From: Parvularia atlantis | Taxonomy: Eukaryota; Opisthokonta; Rotosphaerida | Direction: 5' to 3' | Assembly (NCBI GenBank): GCA_943704415.1 | Contig: CALSCO010001249.1 | Span: 1 to 45,455 of the forward strand | Length of the DNA stretch: 45,455 nt | In this document: positions 4,247 through 24,869 of the stretch, one piece after another | Layout: the number at the start of each line of letters is the position of its first letter | Numbering within the stretch: position 1 is the first letter of the stretch | Program-made: the position numbers and the translations under genes | Notes under the pieces: generated by a model | What the model saw: the letters and a program-made list of their open reading frames with translations, nothing else | Databases searched by the model: none | Told to the model about the DNA's origin: nothing

Positions 4247-6246
<2,000 letters not shown>

Positions 6247-6493
6247 GCGCGTGCGCGCTCGCGCGGTTGCTGTGGCCGTCTGCGGCGCGTGTGTGCGCGA
6301 AGGTGTCAGACGTGTGTCTTTCCCTCTCTGCGAACCGCTGCGTGGCACGGCCACGCTACACCGCAGCGCAGCACCTGCCCAGCCCCGCACCCGCCCAGCC
6401 GCGCGCCCTGCAGCCCGGCCGCGCGCCCGACGCCGAGCCACGCCTGCACGTCCACATTGTGCGTTTACGCGGCGCCGCCTTGCCGAACCCAAC
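6247..6493. promoter_or_regulatory. divergent intergenic promoter, MYST / MECR
   Basis: A 247 bp spacer between two divergent start codons (6246 minus, 6494 plus). It must contain both promoters. A pyrimidine stretch lies near 6317-6330. I see no TATA or CCAAT box. Confidence 0.5.
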
Positions 6494-20569: not shown

Positions 20570-20655
<86 letters not shown>

Positions 20656-20796: not shown

Positions 20797-21942
20797 TCAC
20801 GAGTAGTCGTTCATCTCAATGTCCTTCGACGCCTCGTCGGCCTGGATGGCCAGGGCGATGGCGAAGATGAGGCCGAAGACCTCGATGCCGGCCAGGACAC
20901 CCGCGCCGGCCTGGAGGTAGACGATGTAGAGCGAGTAGAACGAGTAGTACGCATCGAGGCAGCTCTGGACGTAGCCGTCCTTGTTGAACGAGTTGTAGTA
21001 GCAGTAGTACACGTCGTACGTGTTCTGGGGTGGCGGGTCCTGCTTCGGCGCCGGGTTGGTCGAGTTGTAGTTGTTGACGGCCAGGCAGCACGTGCTGTTG
21101 GGCGTGCTGAAGTCGGTCGTGTTCAAGAAGCCGCAGCAGTTGAAGCCGTTCTCGAGCGCCGCGCGATCCGTCTCGCTCAGTTTGCGGTACTCCTGACCCA
21201 GGAAGCTCTCGAGCGAGGACGTGTACTGGTACGCGACGACAGCCACGGCGATCTCGGCTGCAAGGATCATGACGAGCAGCGCGAAGTACTGCGCGTGCGT
21301 GCGGGGGGCTGTGTGAGTCGCGCTGCACGTGCGCAGGCGCGCGTGGTGGGGCGGGCCGACGCACGATCCATAGCATGATCTTGTTGATGATGATCGCGGC
21401 GACGAGGCCGACGAGCGCGATGACGATGACGAAGATGGCCACGACGATGGCGCCTGCGCACAGGCGCGGGGTGAGCACAGCCTGTCCAACAGCAACGCAC
21501 GCGCGCTCCCACGCACCGACCGAGAAGGTCCGCGGGATGCCGTACGTGCTCGCCTGGACGTAGAAGTAGATGCCGGCCGCGAGCACGGCGATGCCGGCCG
21601 CCAGGAAGAGCGAGTTGAAGATGATGAGGCCCCAGCGCGAGATCTTGGCGCAAGTGCCCTGCACGTTTTTTCGTCGTCGTCAACACGTGCGCAACTCGCG
21701 CGCGCACTGCGGAAATCGTTCTCCGCGCTCGACCCGCGCGAGGACGCGAGCGAGAGCGGGGGCGCGCTTGCGAGGGGCATCGAGGGGGAGGCGGCGTGCG
21801 CGCGCGAGCAGCGACAAGGGCCAACAAAAAAAGCAACGAAAAAAGCAACGGGAACCGAGGTCTTGCCCACCGCACGCGCGCGCCGTGCGCCACCCGCCGC
21901 CCCTTCCCCCCTCTCTCCTCTTCCCCGCTCTCGCGCGGCACG

Positions 21943-22235: not shown

Positions 22236-24869
22236 ATGGTCAACTTTGGGACGTACCTGCGCTCGTTCCGGAACGCGGCGTGGGCCGACGACTACCTCAA
22301 CTACGAGCTGCACAAGGGCACGATCTACGCCATTGAGCGCGCGTTGCAGGCGCCCGAGGCCGAGCGTGCGTCTTGCGCAGAGCATCAGCACGTCACACGC
22401 TGACCGACCGCGCGGCACACAGGCGACGCCACCGGCGCGGCGCAGCAGCTCGGCGAGGTCCGCGCCTTTGCGCGCGAGCTCCTGGCCGACCTGGACAAGA
22501 TCAACGCGTTCTACGAGCGCAAGCTGGCGCAGCTGCGCGAGACGTTTGCGCAGCTGCAGGCGCACGTGGAGGGCGCAGACCTGCGCAAGCTGCCGGAGCT
22601 CGAGCGCGAGCGCCTCAAGTACGCGTTCCACACGCTCTACGTCGAGCTGAGCCTCCTGCGCGACTACTCATCGCTCAACTACACCGGCTTCTCCAAGATC
22701 CTCAAGAAGCACGACAAGACCCTGCCCATGCTCAAGATGAAGCGCGACTTCTTCAAGAACGAGATCAACCGCCGCGCGGTCTTTGGCACGCTGGACGAGC
22801 TGCAGCAGATCCAGACGCGGACGCAGGTGTGCGCACACCGGCGCGTGTGTCCCGCTGCTCACGCACGCACGCGCGCTCCCAATGCTGCAGCACCTTTTCG
22901 CCGAGCACTTTTGCGGCTTCAACCGGCTCGACGCCGAGATCTCATTTGGCGAGGCGCTTGCAAAGGCCACGGACGAGAGCCAGCGCGCGTCCAGTGCGTG
23001 CGCGCGCGAGTGCCGTTGCTGCCGCTGCCGCACGCGCTCACACGCGCCCGGCGCCAGGCCTGCTCAGCAAGAAAAGCGCCGTCATGGGCACACCGTTCCA
23101 GGCGCAGCCGCTCACGTTCGACACTGGCGGCGACCATCTGCTCCTGGCTGAGAACATGCAGGTGCACTTGTGCCCCCCCTTGCCTGCGTGTCTGGCCTCC
23201 GCCGATGCGTCTGCGCGGTCAGGGCTACCATCGCGGCAAGGACGAGGACACGAGCGTGATCTCGAGCGCGCTCTGGCAGCGCGCGCGCGTGACGATGATG
23301 GCCGTGCAGGCGCTGCGCCGGGTGCGGCCGCACACGCACCGCCCGTCGCGGCCGCTCAGCCAGCGCACGACGCGCAGGAGCCGGTCATCATGCCCATCAT
23401 CACCTCGCTCGTGCTCATGCTCGTCGGTGGCTGCGGCCAGGCGTTCTGTCTCGGTGCGTCGCCGGCCCGCTCCTTGCGCCGCAGCCCGCATAAAGCCTCG
23501 CATCGCCGCACCGACAGAGTACATGGTGAAGATCGACCCCGGGTGCGGCTCGACGATCACGTTCTTCCAGTACCTATTTGTAGCGCTCGAGGGCCTGCAG
23601 AACTACGTCACGTGGGACTCGATGGTGCGCGCCGGTGCCTGCGTGCACACACAGCGGCGTGACGCACGTTTGCCACAGGCCGGCGGCGTGTTTGGCAAAG
23701 TGTTGAGCGTGCGCATGAAGCCGCTCAAGATCCCCATCGCTTACCACGTCGGTGCGCGTCGCTCTCCCTCACTCGCGCCCGCGCGCGACGCTCAGCGGCG
23801 CGTGCGCCAGGTTGCGTGCTCATGTCGTGGCTCGCGGCCGTGCTGTCGAGCTGGGCGTACTGGTACAACGTCTCTGTGCCGTTCCACATGGTCTTCAAGA
23901 GCTCGATCCTGCTCGTCAACATGACCATCGGCGCGATCATGCTGCGGCGGCAGTGCGTCGCCACCCGAGGCCGCTGCTCGCTCGCTCGCTCACTCACGGC
24001 GACGGCAGGTACTCGCTCGGCCAGGTCGGCTCGGTCGTGCTCGTGACCATCGGCGTGATGATCTCGACGCTCGCGTCGCTGCCCGCTGCACCGGTGGGCC
24101 TCGTGCGTGCACTTGCGCGTGCTGACGCTGTATGCGCCCGTGGCAGGACAAAGCCGACGCGGTTGAGATGCAGAACTTTTGGCTATGGGTGCTCGGCGTG
24201 AGCATCCTCGCGCTCTCGCTCGTCTTCACGGGGTGCGGCGCGTGCGGCACGTTCGTGGCCGTCTAACGAGCGCGAGCGCAGCTTCCTGGGCATCCTGCAG
24301 GACCTGGCCTACCGCAACTACGGCAATCACTGGCAGGAGGCGCTGTTCTACGCTGTGCGTCTGGCGGCCTGCGCCCACGCCGGCTGACGCGGCCGCGCGC
24401 ACGCGCAGCACTTCCTCGGCCTGCCGATGTTCCTGACGATCGCGCCCGACATGGTCAAGCACATGCTGCTATGGTCGACCGCGCACCCGGCGATGTGGGC
24501 CGTGCTGATGCTCAACACGATCGCGTCATTCATGGGCGTGCGCGGCATGTACAACCTGACGAGTGCGCCCGCGCCCTCACTCCACCGCCGTGCCCTGACG
24601 CGGGGCGCGCGCGTGCTAGGCCTCACGAGCTCGCTCACGGGCAACCTCATGATCACCGTGCGCAAGTTCCTCTCGCTCATCCTCTCGGTCGTGTACTTCA
24701 ACAACGTCTTTGGGCTGTCGCACTGGACAGGTGCGCGCGTGCGCGCCTTGCCGCGCCATGTGACGGCTCACGCTGTCGCGCAGGGGCCGTGCTGGTCCTC
24801 GTCGGCACAGTGCTGTACACGGGCGCGTCGCAGCAGGCGGCCAAGGCGGCCGTCAAGAAGCAGGCCTGA
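22236..24869 (+). CDS. SPX domain fused to UAA-family nucleotide-sugar transporter (SLC35B4/YEA4-like)
   Basis: The ATG at 22236 begins an SPX domain: MVNFGTYLRSFRNAAWADDY, LNYELHKGTIYAIERAL, VRAFARELLADLDKINAFYE, LKYAFHTLYVELSLLRDY, then LNYTGFSKILKKHDK with the lysine cluster that binds inositol pyrophosphates in known SPX domains. A linker (LLSKKSAVMGTPFQ to ALWQRARVTMMAVQ) leads in frame into a multi-pass UAA transporter: PIITSLVLMLVGGCGQAFCL, DPGCGSTITFFQYLFVALEG, MSWLAAVLSSWAYWYNVSVP, FHMVFKSSILLVNMTIGAIM, RYSLGQVGSVVLVTIGVMIS, FLGILQDLAYRNYGNHWQEA, TGNLMITVRKFLSLILSVVY and GAVLVLVGTVLYTGA. These match SLC35B4/YEA4, which move UDP-GlcNAc or UDP-xylose into ER/Golgi. About 650 residues. 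I checked the joins around the linker: each uses a GT donor and CAG acceptor and keeps the frame, with no stop between domains. Two separate genes remain possible through the internal ATG at 23084. Confidence 0.85.

Follow-up and report, generated by a model that had tools for sequence, protein, structure and literature searches.

A predicted gene in Parvularia atlantis joining an SPX domain to a UAA-family nucleotide-sugar transporter, with possible regulation by inositol pyrophosphates

In a 45,455-nucleotide stretch of DNA from Parvularia atlantis (hereafter the window) we identify a gene model on the forward strand (22236-24869) that combines an N-terminal SPX domain with a transporter of the UAA family. 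Analysis of the sequence confirms the joining of the two in one gene model as well supported. We propose, with a probability of about 55%, that this single nuclear gene codes for an ER-resident carrier of the SLC35B4/Yea4 type with a cytosol-facing SPX domain, and that its import of sugar nucleotides would be regulated by InsP. In the parts of the literature examined, the proteins that carry SPX domains serve to transport, store or signal phosphate, and the architecture described here would constitute an SPX-regulated transporter design with a new transport module, a novelty that is provisional and is measured against that literature rather than against eukaryotic proteomes.

Architecture of the gene and the SPX domain

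The model comprises 15 exons coding for 610 amino acids, with a TGA stop at 24867-24869. Its 14 introns are of the GT-AG type and short (49-64 nt), begin with GTG in every case and with GTGCG in 11, and end in AG throughout and in CAG in 13; the lengths of ten of the 14 are indivisible by 3. These splice sites were picked by us with both domains in view. Exons 1-2 (22236-22365 and 22423-22826) code for the SPX domain (residues 1-178), as delineated by Pfam and by alignment with XPR1. They are followed by exons 3-5 (22891-22993, 23058-23161 and 23223-23321), which code in the joining frame and contribute the remaining SPX region together with the linker to the transporter, about 100 residues separating the SPX core from the first helix. 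Exons 6-15 (23378-24869) code for the transporter itself, and intron 5 (23322-23377) forms the seam between it and the linker. The initial annotation had described the SPX domain as leading without a stop into the transporter: the joined frame of 610 codons stands, but it is not one open frame, as 14 introns have to be removed from it. Five codons inside exon 6 lies the ATG of M285 (23390-23392), which aligns near M1 of yeast Yea4, with 284 residues preceding this native start position. The placement of intron 5 five codons upstream of M285 (23322-23392) is what would be expected if a set of SPX-bearing exons had been joined upstream of a complete transporter gene.

Searches with Pfam recovered the SPX family (PF03105) with an e-value of 2.1e-20 (74.5 bits against a cut-off of 27.8), bearing out the position and strand at which the initial annotation had placed this domain. 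Its best match among solved structures is XPR1 (8tyu_B, e-value 2e-16, residues 3-148). In an alignment with 5ijh_A, Y23 and K27 (22302-22304 and 22314-22316, within 22302-22316) and the lysines K135, K138, K139 and K142 of the KILKKHDK motif (22695-22718) fall on XPR1 Y22, K26, K158, K161, K162 and K165, with identity at all six positions; we take these XPR1 residues to be those of its inositol-pyrophosphate pocket. The position of XPR1 K2 is not kept, with N3 aligning there. The spacing of the four lysines is also that of K200, K203, K204 and K207 of SpXpr1, which are reported to contact InsP6 (PMC13083964). These features support a putative, motif-complete pocket for inositol pyrophosphates in the SPX domain.

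Such a domain could be part of a real fusion and still have a role other than gating the carrier, serving instead for dimerisation, anchoring or turnover (e.g. through InsP8-dependent recruitment of partners) or exerting a weakened form of regulation. This is the alternative that survives best, although we regard it as unlikely. There are precedents for it in the VTC complex, which uses SPX-SPX contacts (PMC10167327), and in NLA, which is described as acting by its ubiquitin ligase function (PMC11528361), and the long linker between the SPX core and the first helix would also be compatible with it; nevertheless, the pocket residues have been kept and, as in XPR1, the SPX domain lies N-terminal to a ten-helix carrier, here predicted to face the cytosol.

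Coding potential across the join

The linker exons 3-5 were excluded from the training of the codon table, and these held-out exons (102 whole codons) score +0.342 log-odds per codon in the joining frame. None of 5000 noncoding samples drawn from the window reached this score (mean -0.463, sd 0.134, maximum -0.025 per codon), with the qualification that this null leaves out our own choice of splice sites. That these exons are coding in the joining frame makes chance adjacency of two genes or an assembly chimera unlikely. The missing stop codon, on which the initial annotation had based its case for the join, turns out to be weak evidence when taken alone, because 974 of the 5000 noncoding samples of matching size were likewise stop-free by chance in this GC-rich DNA. 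When each exon was scored with a leave-one-out codon table the modelled frame outscored the other five in 15 of 15 exons, although exon 15 barely scores above zero (0.02) and the lead over a reverse frame is narrow in exons 6, 9 and 10. GC3 amounts to 93% over the gene and to 82-97% in the linker exons, and the introns are 75% GC. The splice signals were also compared with 102 same-strand gaps from the rest of the window, the edges of which derive from a coding-potential annotation trained on the SPX-UAA gene itself: GTGCG lies no more than 36 nt from the donor edge in 73 of these, as against 16.4% expected by chance, suggesting that the donors of the SPX-UAA gene are of the usual type for the host genome, and CAG lies near the 3' edge in 83 (a count that comes with no chance value).

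This evidence bears directly on the possibility that the locus comprises two transcription units, or yields isoforms, such that SPX-only and transporter-only proteins are its main products and the joined form is rare or absent, which we judge to be distinctly improbable. It has in its favor two in-frame internal starts, namely M222 (the ATG at 23084 that the initial annotation had singled out) and M285, the latter being at the native start of the transporter family and thus a possible alternative or internal start for a stand-alone transporter. Furthermore, retention of intron 2 or of intron 3 is predicted to shorten the product to 264 codons, whichever of the two is retained, and the transporter is predicted to be lost upon the single retention of intron 2, 3, 4 or 5 or the skipping of exon 3 or 4; since several single splicing errors would have this effect, SPX-only products are possible. 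Speaking against two units are the coding of exons 3-5 in the joining frame, even as they are part of neither core domain, the stop-free state of frames 0 and 2 from 22826 to 23600, and the lack of any evident space for a terminator and a promoter; likewise, skipping of exon 5, or retention of introns 4 and 5 together, is predicted to keep the frame of the transporter.

The transporter, its probable location and the surroundings of the gene

Residues 290-595 match the Pfam UAA family (PF08449) with an e-value of 4.7e-74 (249.8 bits against a cut-off of 26.2) over nearly the full length of the profile (positions 5-308 of 311), so that this domain, too, lies at the position and on the strand initially given for it. 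EamA, PUNUT, CRT-like, FAM92 and TPT also match, more weakly and in each case below the family's own cut-off, and EXS is absent among the seven Pfam families listed at e-values up to 1. Ten hydrophobic segments were detected between residues 282 and 593 by a crude hydropathy method (19-residue segments with a mean of at least 1.1, a cut-off that we set). Their even number would place both ends of the carrier on one side of the membrane, and as both ends are cytosolic in the SLC35 topology this side is probably the cytosol. For placement within the family we used yeast Yea4 and Hut1, the latter being the yeast SLC35B1: the UAA part aligns with Yea4 at 137 bits (93 of 347 positions identical) and with Hut1 at 41 bits, in a pairwise comparison confined to these two. 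Hence, the carrier is likely to be nearer to the Yea4/SLC35B4 than to the Hut1/SLC35B1 subfamily, in line with the SLC35B4/YEA4-like assignment made at the outset. A match to the UAA family does not in itself reveal which substrate is carried. Substrates reported for these relatives are UDP-GlcNAc for YEA4, UDP-GlcNAc and UDP-xylose for SLC35B4, and additionally GDP-fucose for Efr (PMC6245738).

Less probable still than separate products is an SPX-regulated carrier that does not transport UDP-sugars but, for instance, ATP/ADP (as for SLC35B1/AXER), PAPS or phosphate. The only solved UAA relatives matched by the transporter part are SLC35B1 chains (e-values of 8.7e-11 and weaker), and SPX domains elsewhere are mostly found on phosphate carriers; set against this is the far better match to Yea4 than to Hut1, in a comparison confined to these two proteins and less telling for the PAPS branch (SLC35B2 and SLC35B3). 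An ATP carrier of the SLC35B1 type was rejected as the first choice on account of its weaker match.

The protein terminates in KKQA (24855-24866), a signal of the KKXX dilysine type that is associated with ER retrieval. Comparable dilysine endings are reported for SLC35B4 (KDSKKN), Efr (KKVE) and YEA4 (IKKSK), all three of which have been placed in the ER; removal of the dilysine shifts SLC35B4 or Efr to the Golgi, and tagged YEA4 remained in the ER (PMC6245738). Given this ending and the residence of these relatives, the SPX-UAA protein is likelier to be in the ER than in the Golgi, which is where the initial annotation had set it with reference to Erd1 as an SPX-EXS relative. That relationship was mistaken, as Erd1 is described as being without an SPX domain (PMC5714488). 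We therefore rejected the Golgi placement by analogy with Erd1, the SPX-UAA protein moreover having a dilysine ending.

GC content is 67-74% across the window, and exons neighboring the gene match the eukaryotic families MOZ_SAS, RhoGEF, tetraspanin, UCH, WD40, NACHT/NPHP3-like and Cpn60_TCP1 in Pfam; an additional match, to Adaptin_N, is below its curated cut-off, and two of the ten neighboring exons tested have no family match. Neither Rfam nor the tRNA scan returned a hit for the window. A gene upstream, in opposite orientation (20800-21669, reverse strand), codes for a tetraspanin (Pfam e-value 8.5e-17 for 20800-21345), and between it and the RhoGEF gene lies a long (AG)n simple repeat (20577-20654). 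Elsewhere on the reverse strand the window contains a gene for a MYST-type histone acetyltransferase (4250-6260; MOZ_SAS e-value 2.1e-17 for 4767-4994) and a long open exon (40819-42072) with a weak NACHT/NPHP3-like ATPase match (e-values 2.6e-06 and 4.5e-05), which is followed in the direction of transcription by a repeat-like region (40024-40796) that by eye resembles tetratricopeptide repeats. That the SPX-UAA gene is an assembly chimera of two unrelated loci is very improbable: although it rests on a single contig and no second copy was found, neither domain is truncated, the gene shows one intron style and an even GC3 throughout, and the linker codes in the frame of the join, whereas a random join would keep the frame in one of three cases and would not spare both domains.

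A possible link between phosphate sensing and sugar-nucleotide import

In the mechanism we favor, the lysine/tyrosine pocket of the SPX domain would bind InsP7/InsP8, the level of which would report cytosolic phosphate, and the InsP-bound SPX domain would move relative to the ten-helix carrier, thereby altering the rate at which UDP-GlcNAc (alternatively UDP-xylose or a comparable sugar nucleotide) enters the ER lumen in antiport with UMP. InsP7 and InsP8 are reported to rise with cytosolic phosphate, and in the working model for SpXpr1 the binding of InsP rotates the SPX domain (PMC13083964); in fission yeast, phosphate starvation results in a rapid drop in UDP-GalNAc/GlcNAc and UDP-glucose/galactose (PMC11980565). 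Based on these two observations, we prefer a sign of regulation in which InsP8 would permit import when phosphate is plentiful: starvation would lower InsP8 and reduce import, sparing the shrinking pool of UDP-sugars, and repletion would increase import. This sign is uncertain and not predictable from precedent, because deletion of the SPX domain has differing effects among the known transporters, with lower activity reported for human XPR1 and higher activity for SpXpr1 (PMC13083964), and undiminished transport for PHO1 (PMC5714488).

The classes of SPX proteins described in the parts of the literature examined are SPX alone, SPX-EXS, SPX-MFS, SPX-RING, SPX-VTC, SPX-SLC13/CitMHS and SPX-DUF202 (PMC12388464, PMC11528361, PMC13153306), together with the Gde1-type proteins (PMC5714488). 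The closest parallel is with the SPX-EXS phosphate exporters XPR1, PHO1 and Syg1 (SLC53), which share the N-terminal SPX domain, the KILKKHDK pocket and a ten-helix carrier; however, their transport part is EXS and their substrate phosphate, whereas in the SPX-UAA protein the former belongs to UAA/SLC35, with the drug/metabolite transporter fold, and the expected substrate is a sugar nucleotide. From the other side, the ER transporters of UDP-GlcNAc and UDP-xylose (SLC35B4, Yea4 and Efr) are alike in their ten segments, in the C-terminal dilysine and, probably, in a Yea4-like sequence, but the SPX-UAA protein has 284 extra N-terminal residues, and no SPX domain is described for them in the available text of PMC6245738. 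SPX-MFS, SPX-SLC13/CitMHS and SPX-VTC proteins similarly place SPX on a membrane transport or polymerase module, with the difference that their partners handle phosphate or polyphosphate rather than nucleotide-sugars. Erd1, which functions in Golgi phosphate recycling, provides a comparable link between glycosylation and phosphate, but in contrast to the SPX-UAA combination it consists of EXS only and is described as perhaps escaping SPX regulation (PMC5714488).

The initial annotation knew of no SPX-UAA fusion, and this agrees with our survey: within the accessible portions of literature pairing SPX with UAA, SLC35, UDP-sugar or nucleotide-sugar transporters, none was found, eukaryotic protein databases being outside its scope. 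Protein searches of viral and prokaryotic contigs recovered no relative, a result that says little about eukaryotes. A DNA pattern for KILKKHDK recovered four viral loci and 43 from the prokaryotic collection, none a convincing relative, and a tblastn search of these 47 loci with the SPX and UAA parts returned seven rows (best e-values 0.018 for UAA and 0.081 for SPX). The SPX family was found in 0 of 1 bacterial genome, but the controls also scored 0 of 14, rendering this uninformative. Fusions of this kind may already be present, unremarked, in public proteomes.

We tentatively suggest, at somewhat short of even odds, that the SPX-UAA carrier represents a new phosphate-responsive class in which InsP8 directly sets the entry of nucleotide-sugars into the ER. 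Since both halves of the protein are well studied, the effect of InsP8 on nucleotide-sugar transport is a directly testable question. If the proposal is true, glycan or wall synthesis would be a direct output of phosphate sensing by inositol pyrophosphates, and glycosylation in the ER, which uses UDP-sugars in large amounts, would come under direct control by phosphate.
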